Assembly: GCA_037783545.1 (NCBI GenBank)
Contig: JBBELK010000093.1
Location: 1,860,001 to 1,924,000, forward strand
Direction: 5' to 3'
Origin: Henricia sp. BOLD:AAB3569
Taxonomy: Eukaryota; Echinodermata; Asteroidea; Spinulosida; Echinasteridae
Length of the DNA: 64,000 nucleotides
A program made the position numbers and the translations under genes. How positions within the stretch are numbered: position 1 is the first letter of the stretch; each line of letters begins with the position of its first letter. The notes under the pieces were generated by a model that was given only the letters and a program-made list of their open reading frames with translations, did not search any database and was not told the DNA's origin. Below are positions 10,790 to 60,200 of this stretch, in pieces.

Positions 10790-10920
10790 ACCAGTTGGCT
10801 TCATAGCTCAATTGGTAGGGCGTCTGCACGCTAAGCAGAATGTCCGCGGTTCGAATCCCGGTGGGGCCAAGTTGCTTTTCACTGCATCCAGATTTCCCAA
10901 ACTCATGGACATTTGTCGAC
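10790..10920 (+). mobile_element. tRNA-derived SINE head
   Basis: TAGCTCAATTGGTAGGGCG (A-box) and GGTTCGAATCC (B-box) with cloverleaf-like spacing. The T-stem is mispaired and position 33 is C, so a working tRNA is unlikely. The text after it (CTGCATCCAGATTTCC) recurs with the same head at 45425-45535 on the minus strand, which marks a SINE. Confidence 0.6.
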
Positions 10921-24200: not shown

Positions 24201-27200
24201 GGAGTTGGAGAAAACTTGACTAAAGCATCACACAAGCGAGAAGTGGTGCATTTTGCGACTATAATTCACCACTTAATTATGATATGCCAGTTTTAAAAAT
24301 CAATGGAAACTGCATCTCCTGGAAAGAATCTTCAAAGTACAACTTGCGGCCAATTTATTAATGCTGTTAACCACTAAAAACTGCTTATCACAACATTTAT
24401 TTGCTTTGCAAAAATAGGGTACCATACCAGCAAAAATCGTATATGACGTGCATTACATATAATTAATTCATATTCTGCTACTGCTGCTAAGAACAACCTC
24501 TTTGGCTGATAACCCCTTTTTGCAAAGCAAACTGTATCTGTGCTTAAGAATTTGGTTCCTTATGTTTTCTTTAATGTCTGTAGCACACATACCCTCCTTT
24601 GTCATTGATGCATACATGAGCACATCCGCCATTATTGTCTTTACACTCGTTGACATCCGAGCATGACGTCTTGTCAGCCATCAAGTAGTACCCTGGTCGG
24701 CAGTCGCAGGTGAAGCTACCGATGTTGTTAACACAGAAATCATTGTGGTCACATAACTCCTGATCGCATTCATTCACATCTACACAGGGGAAAATGAATT
24801 ACTGGTATGCTAGAATTTGGGCAGTGTTCAAGTGCTGTATTTGTGCACATAAAAGTGTGTGTATTTCCGTATTTTTTGTGACAACTTCATCTGATTTTTA
24901 CAATTTTTATTCTGTTAAATAGGATTCTAAACATTATTTTTATTTATACTTTACATAAAATGGCCTCTTTGTATTTGGTCAATAATTGAATGTATAACCC
25001 CAACATTTTGGAAACATTGTTCTCAACGTTCAACTTTTAAAATGGTTTTGTCGCTATTAACCCTAACCTGTTAGTCCTATGGAAAATCATGTACAAATTG
25101 GAGGATTTTGTATCATTAGGGTTAATTGTCAAACAAAGTCTTTGTGATTTTTTTTCAAAAGTGTGTTCCTTTGGAGAGGTTCTAAAAACTAATCTCTGCA
25201 AACAATACTATCCCATCCCCTTTGGGTCTTTCCACATTAAAAGGGGCTTTTTGGCAACAGACCATATTTTCGAGGAAATCCCTTTGTCTGGTCTCAAAAT
25301 TAAAAAAATAGTTTGAGTTGTTCTGAAGAGACAACTTGTGTTACATTTTAGGCCGTCCCGGTTACGAGCGTATATTGGAAATTTGTACAGAGGGTTTTTA
25401 GAAAGGCATGTTGTCACACTATTTGTAACCTTTTTTGGGCCTAAGTTTTCTCTTCAGAACAACTTAAACTTATTTTTTTTATTTTGAGACCAGACAAAGG
25501 TATTTTCTGGAAAATATGGTCTGTGTTGCCAAAATGCCCCCTTTACCGTGAAAAGACCCAACTCCTTATTGGTTGAACTTGGGTTCTGCCAATACTGCCA
25601 CTTTATTTTTATTTTCAGTCCATTGAAAAAACGATTACTTTCTGAATTTAGAGGTGAAATAAGATGCTTAAAAAAGTAAACCAAGCCTTGATAAAAGACA
25701 TCAGTTAAAATCTTTTAGGGATTTTATTGAAAAGTTTGGCATCCTGTGACCTTTTTACTGACAAGTTTAAAGTTTGGTATAAACCAGTTTGCACCCCAAA
25801 TCTAAGAGCCCAAAATTAAAGCTGTTGCTGGTTGTTTAAGGAAAATCCTGAGAGATTTAATATTTATCGGCTGTCTTGCATGATCAGTCATATTTCAATA
25901 CCATTTCCATTTGTGAAAATTCCCCGGGGTCTAAATCAATGACGTAGTCCAGGGACTCACAAAGTTCCAAGGGGAAGCAATGTTTTAACAGATATTGGAC
26001 TTGACAGTTTAACAGATATTGAACTCAACGTCAGAGACAGAAGTTCAAAGAAAGTTTACACTCTTCAACAGAGGGTCAGAAGAGTTTATTTTATGATAAC
26101 TTAGCCACACAATGTCTACCCTCGCAGATATCCATTCACTCTTGGGTGGAGAGGGGCAATTTATGTCAAAGTGCCTTGCCCAATGACACACACACACACC
26201 CCAACTTGTATTTGCCGGCAATCGTGAACCTAACTCGATTTACCTTATACTGTAGGAAAGAATTTCTTTAATGACACTTAACTAAATTTTACCTAAAGCT
26301 AGAGAGATGAAATTTAAACGTAAATGGTTCTCAAACCTATATAGGTTTGAGAACCAATAATTATAGTTGGTTCTCAAACCTATATAGGTTTGAGAACTAG
26401 TAATTGGTTCTCAAACCTGTATAGGTTTGAGAACCAATTAACTCTAACCCTAACTAATATTGTTCTCAAACCTATATAGGTTTGAGAACCAATAATTATA
26501 GTTGGTTCTCAAACCTATATAGGTTTAAGAACCAACTATAATTACTATTGGTTCTTAAACCTATATAGGTTTGAGAACCAATAATAATTGTAATTTGTTC
26601 TGAAACATATATAGGTTTGAGAACCAATAATAATTAGGGTTAGGGTTAATTGGTTCTCAAACCTATATAGGTTTGAGAATTGGTTCTCAAACCTATATAG
26701 GTTTGAGAACCAATAATAATTATAATTGGTTCTCAAACCTACAGTTGAAGTCAGAAGTTTACATACATGTACACCACTGCCATCGTCACCCAAAATGGTA
26801 AACGGGACTACCCGAACCATTGCAAGGTGTGCAAGCTATGTTTTAAGTACTGCAAGCATGTGAGGAATTCAAACAAATCACGACTTTAGTAAAGACTTTT
26901 ACAAAAATGGTGACCATGCGAGTTTAAGCACACCAATTTTAACACAGTTGTATGTAAACTTCTGACTACAACTGTATATAGGTTTGAGAAACACAGTTTT
27001 ACAACCGTGGAAGGTCCACGTTCGTTAAAAGTCCACAGTTTGAATGTGTTTATTGCTATGAAGGTCATACTTTTATAAAATTATCAAAAGTTTTATGATG
27101 TATATTTTTTATACTTACCATCACAGTGTGTTTCATTGATCATGGAATATCCTTCAAAGCACGTACAATGGAACCTTCAATGGAGGGAAAATGTTAAAAT

Positions 27201-33200: not shown

Positions 33201-36200
33201 TGTGCGCTGTTCGATTTAACAACACAAAATGCACAGTATGGGCAAAAAGGCTGCATCCTAGCTATGGCGGATGTGTACAGGGAAGGAGTCCTTGGAATGG
33301 TCTGTAAGGCACAGTGGTACGCTCCCTCAGGTTTTCCCTACAAACTTAATTTAGCACTAAAATTTATAAAGACATTATTTTTACTGTGAATGTTTGACAT
33401 ACCACGCCCAAGAGAGAAGGAAGATTAAAGCGTGTGTCACATCTGCAATTTAATGCAATTTCACAGAATTCTGTCTGGCATTTCTTGCCACAATCCTTCC
33501 TGAATTCCTTCAGGTAACCATATGTCCCTTGGAGACATTTACCAAGCAGGATGAAATTATTTATGTGTAACCAGAGTTAAGTGTACCCACTTCCAGTGCT
33601 GCAAAAAGGTTACAGGATGGGTGCGACAAAGCCACTTCATAGGTGATGACAGATAAGCTTTTAAAGAGAATTTGCCCACAAGGATGTGGTAAGACCGGTG
33701 ATGGGAGTGTAGAAGAGGGTAGGTGAGTTCTTTCTGTAAAATTTATGATCTTTCGATAAAAATGGAAGCCAAAGTGCAATATTTTCATGGATTTGTAAAA
33801 ATGGCTTTTCTAAGTTACCATTTAAAAAAAAAATTCTTAAAGTAGTGCAGAATAAAAATTTATAAACAGTTTAATAGACATGTCTTGTTATGATAGTTTT
33901 GATACTATTTAAGTTATCTTCTTAAAACGACTTAAACAATCCTTTTACTTTGAGACGAGATAAATTAACTTACAATGTATTTCATATAATCTTCTGTAGG
34001 ACATTCAAACCAACCATTCCTCACTGGCAAGCTTGGTAGTCGAGTGGTTAAAAAATCTTCTTTTGAGTCCCACCCGAGCACTCTATAAGATTTTCAGCAT
34101 GTTCTCAGGAAAGGCATTTAGTATAGTGCATATACTACATCATGTATGGGCAAATTTCATTCCATTTTACATCATATGGACCGACGCAATAATTAACCTT
34201 TTTTATATAACACTCGCCCACTGCAGGACATTAAAACCTGCCATCCGTCAGTGGAAGCTCAGTGGTTGAGTGGTTAAGATGTCTGCCTAGAATGCAGAAG
34301 GTCTAGGGTTCAAGTCCCACTCGGGCATGCTATATGTTTTTAACATGTTCTCGTGTATGGGCAAATTACATTCCATTTAACAAGATAACTTTAGGCATTT
34401 GTACAAAAGTATGGTCTTGGTTGCCAAACTGCCCCCTTTTACCGTGGTAAGGGGCCGTCCATAAAGTATGTACGCACGAAATACAGACCCTCCCTCCCCC
34501 CCTGTACGCACGGCGTACGCAGTGGCTCCAACCCCCCTTCCCCTTGTACACATGAATATGCATTCCTTATATACCTCAGCATTGGTAAGCATTGGTAAGC
34601 ATTGGTAAATGGTTCAGTACTACATGTATAGTGCTATATAGGCCTACTACTAGTACGATTCGCATGTCGCCTCCAAAGTCTGAAATAAATGAGATTTCTT
34701 TTGCATTTTTAAAAAATTAAATGACATCAAGCATCAGAAACTGCAGATTTAATAGAAAAACCTAAATTGAGGAGTGAAAAAAAAATGCGAGTTGAGTGAG
34801 AAAAATGTGTGGCCTGTCTAATATGTTTTGTACATAAGGTCTGACGCCATGGTCAACTTTGTCCATCCTTTCCCAATTTAGTAAAAGCACATTTTCAGTT
34901 TGCGTACATATGCATTGGCTTGGACCCCGCCTCCCCCTGTACGCATTGTGTACGCAATGTCAACAAGCCCCCCTCCCCCCCCCCCATCCCCCCTCCGTGC
35001 GTAAGTATGGACGGCCCCTAAGACCCTGTATACGCACCAGCCTTCCTGATTGATACATGTGTGGCAGTCCTCAGGTTGTGGGTTGCACTCGTCAATGTCT
35101 AGGCACTGCATGACATCCCGGTGGACAATCTCGTTGTCTGGGTAAAACCCCTTGTAGCACTCGCAGCGAAATCCCCCAGGGAAGTTGACGCATGTGTGGT
35201 GGCATTGGTTGGAAAGCTCGGTGGCGCATTCATCAATATCTGACAAAAGATGACGTTAAAAGATATATACAGTTGAACCTTGATAACAAGAGCACTGTTA
35301 ATACAACATTCTGCTTATAACAAGGACAATTTCAGATCCCAATCTCTTGTTTTCATTGTTTTTATTCCTAATAATACAGGGTTCCTGTTATAATAAGGTA
35401 ATTTGCAAAGTCCAAAGGACCTGCGAAGTTCGAGTGTATTGCTAAAGGAGTACACCTAAGAAGTCATGTACATGTATGTATAGACTAATCCGACGATTGA
35501 AAACTGCAGTGTATCTCCAAGGTATTTACATGACGTCACAATAGAAATACACCGCAGTAACAATGGAATAACCACAAAAGGGCGGGCTCACTAAATGTTG
35601 CTCGGATTACACTATACCAAGAAACAAAACACACAGTTGTGTTCACTGAGTGGAACCTGTACATTATTCTCACACAAAGAACAAGAAATATGACCCACTG
35701 AGAAATGGATACAAACTTTAAAAAGTATCCCTTATGGACGGCAACATTTTGTCCACAAATTTGGCAAACAATGACATTTTTGAACACAACTTTTTCATGT
35801 ATTGCTATAAGAATGCATGAGGGGGCTACAGGTATACAAAAACATAATTCTCTGCCAAATTCTCAAACAAAACGGTGGCATCCCAACAACAAGGTATCAC
35901 CGCAATTGTCATTCTTTGTTTCCACTTTTGCGTTGATCAATTTCCTGTTCTTCATATAATAAGGATGTACGGGTAGCATTTGTTTAGCACAGTGTCTTGT
36001 TTCACAGGTATAATTATTCTTTATGTGATTCATACTCATGTGGAAATGAGACCTTTTTGAGGTTTTTTTCAGAGGTTTTCTTGTAAACCTAATAATAGGT
36101 ACATCATATCCATCTCGTTGTGATTGTGTTACTAAATTTACCAACTCTTGCACATACGCCTAAAGTCTGGTATGGAATATATTTGCCTTTTAGCATGCAA

Positions 36201-45200: not shown

Positions 45201-48200
45201 GGAATTGGTTCAAACCACAAATTTAATAACTGACCATTATGAAACAGGAAAAAAAACCACTTTCTCTTATAAAGTTTTTTAATTTTAAGCACAAAGCAAA
45301 TCTCTCTCATTTGGCTTTTATACAACCGCAACATATCTGCTTCAGTGAATTTTTGTTTGTAATATAAACTTCAGGACCATTTTTAAAAATATTTTTTATT
45401 CTCCAATTAATTGTTTTTAAATAATTTGTCCATGAGTTTTGGAAATCTGGATGCAGGGAAAACTTGGCTCCACCGGGATTTGGACCATGGACCTTCTACT
45501 TAACGTGCAGACGCCCTACCAATTAGCCTTTTGCGTGTTTCGCATGAATAGCATACGGTGTACTGATGTACATGTACTTCCCTTCACATGCACACTTAGT
45601 ATCCACTTGACCAGACTAATTTTTGTGGTGCACGCGGCAGGTGTGAAGTACAGAATTGGTAAAACTTAAGGCTATGCATGGTGGAAATCAACGTGTGTAT
45701 GGGTTTACGGTAGCACCATGTGAATCTCATTTGTATATGTGTGGTTCTGAAAAGAACCGGTGAGTGTGAACTCAATGTTTCGAACAGCGTGCTCTGTTCG
45801 TCTTCAGGATTAATGCCGGACTCGTGATGATGCAGGGCTATAAGTACTGGTTGAGGGGTTTCAGTGTACAATGTGTGCACTGAAGCGGCTTGGCTTGGGT
45901 GGAGGAGGCGTGGTTGTGCTAGGATCCTAATACTGTGGTTGGCACCAGTGTGCTCACTGGTGCATGACACTGTGGCAGTGGCTGTCGTGGGTGGAGGACC
46001 TAGGGTATAGGTGACCCATCGGTCTGGTTGGATAATAGTACAGAATTAATAAAGTACAGAATTAATACTGTATTCACCGTAAAGGAGGACGACAAAGCAA
46101 CCAGGCTGTTGATTGCTAGGCAACGGCATGCACCACGTAGCAACAATAGCATAGTATGTGACTTTCTAAACTGCACCTCCATTTGAAAGTGAAGGATTCG
46201 GGGCACTTGCCATTATGTAAAATTTTATATGCCAAAGGCTACTCTCTAAATGCAAAAGAGTGAAAAATTCACTCTTTAAAAGAGTGAGTTCCTTATAAAA
46301 CCACTCGGAAACAGTGAAAATCACTCTAAAATGAGTGACATTCTGTAAAAAGAGTGGGAAAAACCACTCCACAAAGGAGCCATATAAAGGACAGCTCGAA
46401 AAAGAGCTGTCCTTCAAATGGCTCCTCCTTTGAGTGGTTTTTCCACTCTTTTTGGAGTGATTGCCACTCTTTTTACACAATTTCACTCTTTTTAGAGTGA
46501 TTTTTACTGTTTCCGAGTGTTTCTTTAAGGGAGTCACTCTTTTGAAGAGTGAGTTTTTCACTCTTTTGCATTTAGAGAGTAATTAAGCTATAAAGCCAAC
46601 AATGGCCGAACTTTGTCTGGGTTTTCGCAGACATTCTCAAACTGAATGAATTTTGTAGCAATTAAGTGCGATATAACGATTATTGAGAGGCAGTACTAGC
46701 GAGTGTAGCACATACCAATGCAGTTGATCTTGTTCTTTGCCAGTTTGTATCCAGTTCTGCACCGGCAAGTGGGCTTACTGTTTCGTATCTCACACAGCTG
46801 GTCGCATCCGCCGTTGTTAACCTGACAGGGATTGCTGGGGGCAAAATCTGCATCTATTACACAGTTCCACAGGGGATAAAAGTACAAGTTTAGTTGTGTT
46901 GCACTTGTAAATAATTGTTGGACTTAATTTTTTTTAAAAATGATTCTGATAAAATTTCAGATTGGCAAATGTACTGTGTGTTTGTATCAAGATTAATTTT
47001 GGCCTGCAGAAAGCATTTACTGTGTAATTTTCCAGTAAGCTAAGCAGAAGTGAAATGCACCTATATACTGTTCAGGATTCCAAGGTCACTTTCTTGCTAA
47101 AAAGCAGTGTGCATGAGCCAAGGAGTATCATGGATGAGTGGTCCAGCTAGCACATCAAACTGGCAATGGATTTGATTTTATAAAGACAATTGACGAATTT
47201 GACATTAGCCCGTTCTGCGCACTTCCGCGTTGAAGCCACAAGGTTCTTCGTGTCAAGTCGGCAGTAAGCATGCGCTACAAGTACAGTATTGTACAGTGAC
47301 CGAGTGTGTACATGTGCTGTTCTAATTCTGCGTGGCATGTAGGAATGATTGTGCATTCACATGTGTACATTAGTTCACTTCGGAGTTTGAGGCGCGCGCT
47401 CTCCGTGTTAAGCTATGTAAGTGTGCAGATCGGTCCCAAATTGGTTAATTTGGGATTCATCTATTGCCTCCAAGTTTTTACACTGAACAGTTTTTGCAGA
47501 CAACTATTCTTTTGTTTCCACACACACTGGCAGGAGTAGGCCTACATATTCTCTATATGCATCCTCAATTTGCCCTTAAATTGTTTGCGTGATTCTTCTA
47601 CTTTGAATTCTCCTACAAGCATAAAACAAATGGAACATTGCTAACAACAAATGCTACTTCTGAATGTAATGGTTAACTGGAGCTCATAAGACTGTTTTAA
47701 TTAGTGTATTAATATGGATTTGGTTACAGATTAGAGTTGATTGAAAATAAGGCAATAAATATATCAACAAATTCAACAAATGTAGCATTCGTATTATTAG
47801 CTACAGGGTCTTTCTATAAATTAGGGGTCCAAAAGTGTGACATTTGGTGTCCCCCGTTACAACTGATATGTGTTATTTTTCGTACAAAAATCATTAAAAT
47901 GGCATTTAAACCATTTTGTATGAATTGTACTTTATGTACACACTCTTTGAGATGGAAAGTATTTAAAGAATGTGTCCTGAATTTACAAAAACAAGATGTA
48001 AAATGTAACGGGGGACACCAAAGCTGGACCCCTAATTTATAGAAAGACCCTACAAGGGGTTAGAAAGCAAAATGGTTGCTTGACCTTAGAAAAGAAAATC
48101 AGAAAATGTAAAAGTAAATGCAGCAAAAATGTAGCAAATGACCAACTTTTCAAAAGATGACGAGTACAATGTTGGACTCTTTTCGTAAATTTAAGTGAAG

Positions 48201-57200: not shown

Positions 57201-60200
57201 GCAAAACTGGAATAAACATGATACAATACAGACAAGACAATACCTGTCAGTAGAGTGGGCCATTTCTCCTCCATGTTGTTGGCTCTCAAAGGCGATACAC
57301 CTATCATGGGACTACAAAGAAAAAACCCATCAATTTTTAATGAACTGTTGTCAGCTATGTGTTTCAATCACTGTAGCACAATCCCACTCAATTAATTTAA
57401 ATTATGCATACACCAATCAAAAAGGTGCATAGTGCAATGTGAACATGTAGACTTGTTAGAAAATAACCAATGATTCTTAATCTGTTTTCCTTATGTCCGC
57501 CCCAAAACAACTTTGTGCACAGACAATCAGGAGTGCAGGCCGTGGTTTAGGATGAAGTACATGTAGTTCAGGGCGAAGTGGTTTTGGGGACGGTTAACCC
57601 TTATTTGACAGTTTTCTTAAAAGTTAGACGAAGTACAGAGCTTATTTTTGCTTAGGTTGGTTTTTATCATGAATATCTAATAACGACTCGGAGGGATAAA
57701 ACTATTTGTAATGGTTTACCAATCATGTATACCGCCTTTAAGTGTTTACTGAGAAAAGGCATTATCTGATTTTCTTCAACTCATAGTCTTACCTGGGAGC
57801 TACACCGGATAGATGTGCAGGGGTGGATGTGGCAAATTTTAGTCCTGCAGATGAACTTGGTCCTGGAATGCTTGGTGAAGAACTCCTAAATGCACAGTAA
57901 AACATGTTAGCAAAAAGTTAAACCATGCAAGATTCCAACTTTGCCTTGTCCCATGTTTTTCAGAAAGACATCGATTTGGAGGTTAGAGCCACAGTCACAA
58001 ACCAGTCACAATGTTATTTTTACAATATGAAAGTTCCATTTTTCAACAGCCAAATTTAAATGCCTCAGACGTGTGGCTTAACTTCCTCCTTGCCAGGGCT
58101 AAATATGGAAGTTCAGCAACAAGATCAAAATGTATTTTATTTGCCGTTAATTTCATTACTTTATGCCTTGGGTAAGACAACAAAATACATGAAACAAAAG
58201 TACTGGTTTGTAATACTACATGCATATTTGTTTAACTGCATCATGATATAGGGCGATATAACTGATAGATTAGAAGCATACAATGTCGCAAGGCAAACTC
58301 AAGATTCGGGTGCTTCATATTTTGGCGCATGAGGGCTATTCAAGGCTACTATTTCCGGTAGAAAATATAAATGTTCACCCATGATGCGGAAGACAGAGTT
58401 CCGCAGCCTTGGAAAGCCCCCTGCCAATGTGGAATTCACAGGAAACAGGACAAATCGTACCAGGGACAACTTGCAGCGACCTTTGTCAGGAATTTACCGG
58501 GACATTTTGTCGGGACATTCAGACTTTTGGCAAGAGTTTTAGTGCCACTTTTGCCAGTACTAAATTCTTATCAACGCTCCAGTTGGCAAACGGTCGAGTT
58601 CATGACTCGACGGTATTTTTTTAGTTTATGCCACAACTCGAATTTAAGGAAAATAATTATTGGAATCGATAACTTGGACGATTTTAAAATACCTTTTCCA
58701 TTGGCATTTCCGTCGCAAATGTTGCGTTTCCATGAAAATTCTGTGTTTTTGTCACGCCCGCCTCCATACAAAAGTGTGTGAAACTGCTGCCGGCCGAGCA
58801 GTGTGTAAAGAAATAGGGCGTGCGCGTGATGATCTGTTTGGTTTATGGCCGGCCGCTTTGCGTGCAATCATATGCAATATTTTTTTCCGTGATTTTTCTC
58901 TAAAACTAAGCTTTTGCGACGGAAATGCAACTTATTCTAAAATTGTCAAAGCTATCGATTCCAATCATGCCAATAGTTATTTTCCTTAAATTCGAGTTGT
59001 GGCATAAACTAACAAAATACCGACTCGACTGTGAAGTCGAGTTGGTACGACGGTCGAGTTGGCAGGCAAACGGTCCAGTTGACTGTAAACCTTTCAATAT
59101 AAGTGGAGACTAGCTAAGATAATCTCAGCTCTTGCTTTATCATTTTTCATTGGGATGTGGTCTTTTCACCAGTAGAGCTGAGGGATGTCAGACAAGTCGA
59201 CTGTTGAGACAACTCGACTGTTGAGACAACTCGACTCGAGAAAAGTCGACCGCTGAGACAACTCAGCGGACACACTTAAATTTTGAAATTAAAATAACAT
59301 TTTATTTTCAAACAATAAAAACATGTCGACCAGAACGGCCGTGTCACTGAATGGGTAAGCACCATCACCTCTCCCCTTTGACTTGTCTCAACGGTCGACT
59401 TGTCTCAACGGTCGACTTGTCTCAACGGTCGACTTGTCTTTCTTTTTATCGCACATACGGTCGAGTTGTCTCAACGGTCGACTTGTCTCGAGTCGAGTTG
59501 TCTCAACGGTCGACTTGTCTCGAGTCGAGTTGTCTCAACGGTCGACTTGTCTGACCCCCGAGCTGAGAAGCATTAAGAACATGAGTCATGAACATGCACG
59601 CGCACGCCATCACAAAAACAGGACAAAACAAATCATGTGTCATTTTCTCACCGTGACACACTAATTCCCCCTAAAACTCACCCAAACCTTGTCATGCATA
59701 ACCCCTACGCAGGTCCTTGAGGGAAATAACCAGCCACGATGATTATTTTGCCAACAATTCTAGCAAAACAAACCGGTATGCTCACACAGCCTAACCGTTG
59801 TCATGTTGTGAAGTCTATCTGCCTAGTCTGTGTACAAAGGAATACCAATGCGCATTGGTTACCAGACTTGACCTTATCGCTATTATCGGTCGTGTGAGGG
59901 CAGCATTCAACGAAATGTTTTTAAAAAACGGCTTTTTGTCTCATGAGACAAAAACTATTTCTTTTGCTCATTTCTCAAAGACTATAACACTTCAGACCAA
60001 ATCATTTCAGGGGAAGTTTTCTACGGTCATCATGTTTATATTGTGTAAGTTAGGCGTAAATCTGTGAACATTTCTGATTTTCGAATTACCAATGATGTAT
60101 ACTGCCTTTTTAAGTATACCATGGTAAAACCCTTTTTAGACTTCTTTGTTCATCTTATTTCTAAGCTGCCTTAAACATTTCTTATCTCATGACAGTCCAA

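Follow-up and report, generated by a model that had tools for sequence, protein, structure and literature searches.

The histone-type 3' pathway, in which the histone downstream element (HDE) is the U7 target, is to our knowledge known almost solely for replication-dependent histones. Penelope-like elements (PLEs) and PLE hammerheads are also already known. In PAc (Poseidon of Anolis, a PLE with GIY-YIG), according to the main text of its description, the ORF starts at hammerhead stem II, reverse transcription starts at an AC-rich stem loop, and an optional tail lies between two internal start sites of the reverse transcriptase (RT), the common one being 111-118 nt into the ORF (PMC11167929). 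The element described here is alike in having an RT with a GIY-YIG-like region, repeated copies, a pseudo-LTR (pLTR) whose junction with the ORF holds a hammerhead, and a 30-40 nt optional tail between two RT start sites, putative in our case. Counted from the start of stem II, the first of these sites is at 106 nt in our element and at 111-118 nt in PAc. Our element is different in that a histone stem-loop with HDE is placed between the hammerhead and the RT starts, of which the main text on PAc makes no mention, and in that the likely start codon is farther downstream (PMC11167929). With the minimal type I hammerheads of PLEs, as far as two sources describe them, ours shares the minimal motif, the practical lack of stem III and the expected cutting as dimer (PMC6155905, PMC7761336). 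The 3' ends of replication-dependent histones (RF00032; in the same genome L059, L068, L069 and L071) have the same stem-loop, flank, HDE and spacing, whereas here the bearer is a retroelement, a hammerhead lies just upstream and RT starts 44-80 nt past the expected cut. In the literature on PLEs and other retroelements we found no report of a histone stem-loop with HDE, and a mention in the primary PLE-hammerhead papers is possible.

The window, meaning the whole analysed stretch of 64,000 nt (C93:1860001-1924000 of a 740.7 Mb eukaryotic assembly), carries one truncated copy of this element (Table 1). The letters given in a preliminary description were confirmed on the minus strand: CTGAAGA (45807-45801), a single C, the 6-bp stem GAACAG (45799-45794) with CTGTTC (45787-45782), GAAAC (45781-45777), and 18 bases later the hairpin GGTTCTTTTCAGAACC with ACACA. 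By eye, the copy is flanked by 11-bp duplications. Other copies, which the preliminary description had proposed to collect, exist and are dispersed: with a 421-nt query, the best 40 of 1505 candidates were scored, with 94-100% identity, and most of these 40 began at query position 23-26 and finished at 400-412. Other copies also run upstream of the truncation of the window copy, into an ORF ending ...DIGFNISNIWHSLLSNQTDGSPIP. For the part after the ORF we aligned 42 distinct tail sequences (66 matches minus identical ones). These were chosen for matching the window best, which biases the sample toward intact copies and complete tails.

Table 1. Positions of the features of the PLE copy within the window
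Feature	Position	Strand	Basis
5'-truncated PLE copy, family A, 381 nt, reaching the family 3' end	45658..46038	minus	40 scored genome matches; 32/42 distinct tail sequences end at position 381
Final codons of PLE ORF with TAG stop (LLSNQTDGSPIP*)	46000..46038	minus	Longer copies extend the frame upstream into GIY-YIG-like region and RT
Hammerhead stem I, 5' strand: AATC in window, ACTC in family A	45808..45811	minus	Alignment of 42 tail sequences; family B has TCTC opposite GAGA
Hammerhead core: CTGAAGA, C, stem II, GAAA, C-A-T (family: CGT), U17	45774..45807	minus	Sequence and alignment of 42 tail sequences
Hammerhead stem I, 3' strand GAGT; cut predicted between 45774 and 45773	45770..45773	minus	Sequence and alignment
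Histone-type 3' stem-loop GGTTCTTTTCAGAACC	45743..45758	minus	RF00032, 37.8 bits; pair 3 is U-A in window, C-G in family B
ACACA following the stem-loop	45738..45742	minus	Read from sequence
Histone downstream element CAAATGAGAT, family A form	45724..45733	minus	Present in 40/42 tail sequences
Junction ending four inverted partner copies (345/346): putative first RT start site	45693..45694	minus	Copy ends; analogy with the PAc main text (PMC11167929)
36-nt PLE tail: in direct copies, absent from the inverted partners seen	45658..45693	minus	Copy comparison
ATG of CCACCATGCA: candidate start codon of next tandem ORF	45677..45679	minus	ACCATGCA common to L078, L075 and family A
Target-site duplication AATTCTGTACT, 3' copy	45647..45657	minus	By eye
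Target-site duplication AATTCTGTACT, 5' copy; final two bases overlap the CT of the element	46037..46047	minus	By eye

L050 holds two copies in head-to-head orientation, and a 14-bp duplication, TATAATAGTCATTG, was read by eye on either side of them. An ORF of 403 residues in this longer locus (L050:3583-4791) matched RVT_1 with 33.4 bits (cut-off 29.6). The C-terminal 102 residues of this ORF matched GIY-YIG with an E of 0.00067 and 20.4 bits, below the curated cut-off of 22.6, and the residues VYRIPCECGKVYIGETGR in the PLE protein fit GIY-YIG by eye. An RT-like stretch of 80 residues nearer the N-terminus had no match in Pfam, and a PDB search with the PLE protein gave weak matches only. Inverted and tandem copies were found with a one-sided difference of 36 nt, and an optional tail of 30-40 nt is described for PLEs in the main text of PMC11167929. 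The link to Penelope elements, which the preliminary description had drawn, is supported by the RT match and by these direct and inverted copies; judged from such features, we interpret the site as a PLE's pseudo-LTR end. The parts follow in the order ORF end, hammerhead, histone stem-loop, HDE, putative first RT start, ACCATG and putative second RT start, with the ATG at 79 nt from the start of the stem-loop in family A, 81 nt in L078 and 105 nt in L075. AATAAA or ATTAAA was present in 0 of the 42 tail sequences. One frame is open across much of the PLE tail in many copies, including hammerhead and stem-loop (window 45658-46038, minus strand), and no start codon that explains it was found there.

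Elsewhere in the window, tRNA-like sequences were detected at 10797-10869 and 34256-34328 (by Rfam at both, by ARAGORN at the second only), and a further tRNA-like stretch was read by eye at about 45460-45531 on the minus strand, just downstream of the PLE copy. They are probably tRNA-derived repeats. Tandem arrays were seen at 26320-26709 and 59190-59552, the first with palindromic units such as GGTTCTCAAACCTATATAGGTTTGAGAACC.

The majority of the tail alignment reads ACTC-CTGAAGA-C-GAACAG-AGCACG-CTGTTC-GAAA-CGT-T/GAGT (slash, predicted cut), with a stem I of 4 bp, a stem II of 6 bp and ACGU replacing stem III. One extra C stands between core and stem II, which we presume to be absent from the usual form of minimal type I PLE hammerheads. 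Being self-complementary, the ACGU fits the dimer-type minimal hammerheads of PLEs as described in the two sources available (PMC6155905, PMC7761336). By script, every hammerhead pair was present in 32 of the 42 family A tail sequences, and also in the family B copy L075. CUGANGA, stem II, GAAA, an NUH cleavage site and stem I were likewise found in 32/42 tails and in L075, and not in the window copy, whose hammerhead is broken by an A for C at 45810 (stem I) and an A for G at 45776 (ACGU); the latter G-to-A change belongs to the window copy alone among the aligned family A sequences. So the hammerhead of the preliminary description stands as a minimal PLE-type hammerhead of the family majority, and the core in the window itself is not intact. 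Ribozyme activity of the PLE hammerhead is predicted from its letters and pairs. Rfam hammerhead models gave no match in the window (E up to 10) or in six longer loci (E up to 3), and RF00008 gave none genome-wide with 67 candidates scored, nor in the control genomes. The minimal PLE variant is probably outside the Rfam hammerhead models.

The hairpin after the hammerhead, which had been described as canonical histone-type, is a genuine signal of this type: RF00032 scored 37.8 bits in the window against a curated cut-off of 34 (E 1.7e-7 for the window). The signal is also fuller than first described, with an HDE after the stem-loop. Scores were 35.0 and 34.3 bits in family B and 42.4 bits in L065, a diverged copy with 75% to the tail which was found via its stem-loop score and so is not an independent sample. 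Below the cut-off were L078 (31.4) and the family A copy L040 (23.4). The four histone genes of the same genome scored 38.7-44.0 bits; among them L068 matched the core histone family (69.8 bits), L071 had histone-fold family matches with core histone below cut-off and was H4 by eye, and L059 and L069 were H1-like by eye. The stem-loop with AC was exact in 35 of the 42 distinct tail sequences. The HDE was CAAATGAGAT in 40 of the 42 family A tails, one base off the form CAAAAGAGAT of L065. Family B shares the form CAAAAAAGAGAT with an H1-like gene (L075 and L059 being identical here), and in L078 no HDE was found. From the stem-loop to GAGA there were 14 nt in the window, 14-20 nt in five PLE sequences with HDE and 15-18 nt in four histone genes. 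The SLBP RNA-binding domain is encoded in the genome. The fold z of the whole region was -2.02 in family A (L010), -2.80 in the window and -1.00 in family B, and -2.72 and -5.24 for the stem-loop alone. The lowest-energy folds of family A and of the window had stem II and the stem-loop, without stem I.

In the whole genome, GGNTCTTTTCAGANCCAC was found 1830 times against 20 for the reversed pattern, the 1830 being a mixture of histone genes, other repeats and PLEs. Neighbouring 18-mers gave 18 matches for the rare variant carried by the window and 280 for another, which are not comparable to 1830. The composite GAAACGT-N8..37-GGNTCTTTTCAGANCC was found 435 times against 0 reversed, with a span of 39 nt in 77 of the first 100 places, 35 nt in 13, 36 nt in 7 and other lengths in 3. 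The exact hammerhead pattern occurred 280 times, and 0 times reversed; among 63 exact cores listed on C1-C104, the composite stood where expected in 49 and was missing there in 14. By eye, the stem-loop was of the GGTT..AACC type in about 86 of the roughly 100 places listed for GGNTCTTTTCAGANCCAC. We also took the 23 PLE protein ends on C1-C104, that is the matches reaching residue 398 or beyond among 111 listed matches, from a search in which 103 of 1098 candidates were scored. The composite lay 213-360 nt downstream on the same strand in 16 of them (C61 and C104 each contributing two that look like duplicates of one another) and was absent in seven. A chance origin of the motif is ruled out by the counts against reversed patterns together with the order of parts common to two families. 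At C57:183453-183522, two oppositely oriented composites of the 35-nt class abut at their GAAACGT ends, an extreme inverted pair.

Beyond this genome, the composite pattern had 0 matches in a collection of non-eukaryotic genome contigs and the strict composite pattern had 0 in viral contigs. A relaxed pattern matched 23 viral contigs, 5 of them with both variable stem pairs complementary, which from the pattern length we take as chance. The PLE protein gave two weak matches of 30 residues against viral contigs.

Histone stem-loops with HDE were also seen, up to 46.9 bits, in other dispersed repeats in which no histone gene was seen (L055-L057; L058, L072, L073; L060-L062, L066, L067; L063, L064; L070). 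They mostly bear a motif like TGCCTGA/TGCCTAA, in common with histone genes. Five frames of L057 (two), L060, L063 and L064 gave no Pfam family above cut-off. Outward-facing pairs of histone stem-loops about 5 kb apart occur at C498:139012-144492 and C1010:62334-67282 (L064 being the one read), as if marking the two termini of an element with inverted ends. L074 (C11:76500-77100) has an isolated stem-loop GGCTTTTTTCAGAGCC with HDE and then GTGGTACCACCGTGAAC, by eye like the PLE sequence past the HDE, and is perhaps another PLE family. A tandem array of histone stem-loops with a period of about 4.1 kb is present at C835:231615-336473, and its unit L071 is H4-like by eye, with histone-fold Pfam matches.

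A second PLE family (family B), with 62% protein identity to family A, was read in copies L075 and L079, and has the same order of hammerhead, stem-loop and HDE. The family B hammerhead is TCTC-CTGAAGA-C-GAGCAG-GGTATA-CTGTTC-GAAACGTC/GAGA, followed by GGCTCTTTTCAGAGCC and then CAAAAAAGAGAT, with a longer A run in L079, and the lowest-energy fold of L075 contains stem I, stem II and the stem-loop. These two are among five further PLE ends, of which L078 has the stem-loop with half of the hammerhead missing, and L076 and L077 have lost the 3' part ahead of the stem-loop. A third class, read once as letters (C23:1633560), has GUC/GAGA with GGTT..AACC.

From family A to family B, stem I is changed on both sides (ACUC/GAGU to UCUC/GAGA, A-U to U-A), stem II on one side (A-U to G-U), and pair 3 of the stem-loop on both sides (U-A to C-G). 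Pairs were counted in alignment A1 (12 chosen sequences, 10 distinct, 16 named pairs), where standard pairs filled 97.4% of the named-pair cells against 25.7-43.4% when slid. One pair in this alignment had both sides changed; the change in stem I was uncounted because the aligner placed a gap there. Among 500 shuffles, 10 reached the percent paired, 10 the covariation score, 173 the number of both-sided pairs and all 500 the number of further pair types. On the covariation asked for in the preliminary description, both hairpins differ on both sides of a pair between the two families, and the shuffle control is mixed (173/500 and 500/500). Because family B has the same stem-loop and HDE as histone genes, what looks like compensation in the stem-loop could also come from a histone end that family B captured separately; this would account for the letters of the stem-loop, not for those of stem I.

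The tail sequences end at position 378-381 in 36 of 42 cases. The ends of four inverted partner copies are at 345/346, L065 can be aligned as far as 351, and one inverted alignment is interrupted at 192. Five shorter inverted fragments align to 347-353, where letters of the flank can match by chance. Position 345 is 106 nt beyond position 239, the start of stem II. From histone biology, we take the cleavage to be expected at the end of ACACA, and the copy ends are 44-80 nt past it. The proposal that the ends of inserted copies are set by the ribozyme or by histone processing did not hold for the copies seen here, as these ends lie beyond the expected histone cut. Their pattern matches, by analogy, the two internal RT start sites of the anole PLE as given in the main text of PMC11167929.

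The presence and conservation of a histone signal with a hammerhead in the PLE pseudo-LTR is well supported at the level of sequence, and we propose that the PLE mRNA 3' end would be cut by host SLBP and U7 snRNP about 5 nt after the stem-loop, at the 3' pseudo-LTR. The resulting message would be without poly(A) and under the control of histone mRNA. The template of reverse transcription would be unprocessed or read-through RNA: DNA copies, in a sample that favours complete tails, begin 44-80 nt past the cut, so the template RNA must have escaped processing. Processed and escaped RNA might thus form a switch between message and template, the PLE might be coupled to S phase, and ACCATG, past the first RT start, would probably hold the start codon for the unit that follows. 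That SLBP/U7 processing makes the 3' end, with reverse transcription from unprocessed RNA, seems to us rather probable from the arrangement of the parts. The main difficulty for the SLBP/U7 reading is the 5' signal in a tandem array, which would destroy transcripts begun upstream, so that transcription should start after the signal. A single genome, with two families read well, supplied all the sequence evidence. To the whole reading, that a PLE lineage is wired to the histone-mRNA pathway, with SLBP/U7 making the mRNA and unprocessed tandem RNA, left by weak processing, being the RT template, we would give a probability of about one in three.

We regard it as rather unlikely that the PLE protein lands on the stem-loop and that the stem-loop is histone-like by descent or convergence, without action of SLBP and U7. 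The position of the stem-loop does fit, with the hammerhead on one side, the RT start sites on the other and, close by, the region that the anole protein needs according to the main text of PMC11167929; however, a landing site has no need of an HDE, while in both family B and L065 the HDE is still of histone type and spaced as in histone genes, and loop and flanks pass the RF00032 cut-off in both families. The several other dispersed repeats with histone stem-loop and HDE would rather fit a histone gene 3' end that was captured once or per family and is carried without function, as would the stem-loop and HDE of family B, equal to those of the H1-like gene, and the HDE of family A, one base different. 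This capture is nevertheless improbable in our view: both families, whose other flanks are hard to align, hold a near-equal distance to the hammerhead, the stem-loop is beside 49 of the 63 listed intact hammerhead cores, and it is exact in 35 of 42 tails, in a sample leaning to intact copies. The GAAACGT-to-stem-loop spans of 39, 35 or 36 nt in 97 of the first 100 places could also mean that the hammerhead alone sets the RNA ends, and a cut at GUU/GAGU would create a 5' end near which the stem-loop, 15 nt away, would protect the RNA or aid translation. We find this very hard to accept, as the hammerhead of the anole PLE was uncut without protein and dispensable for insertion in vitro, and the anole reads neither began nor ended at the hammerhead site, as given in the main text of PMC11167929.

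A histone-type 3' signal in the pseudo-LTR gives a testable answer to the question of how the PLE mRNA ends. If the reading through SLBP and U7 is true, a single signal would decide whether PLE RNA serves as message or as genome, transposition would be bound to S phase, and histone genes would have hundreds of PLE copies as competitors for SLBP and U7. This would place a mobile element on the histone-RNA pathway, directly linked to S phase, and our results suggest that a mobile element has borrowed the histone-RNA machinery of the cell.
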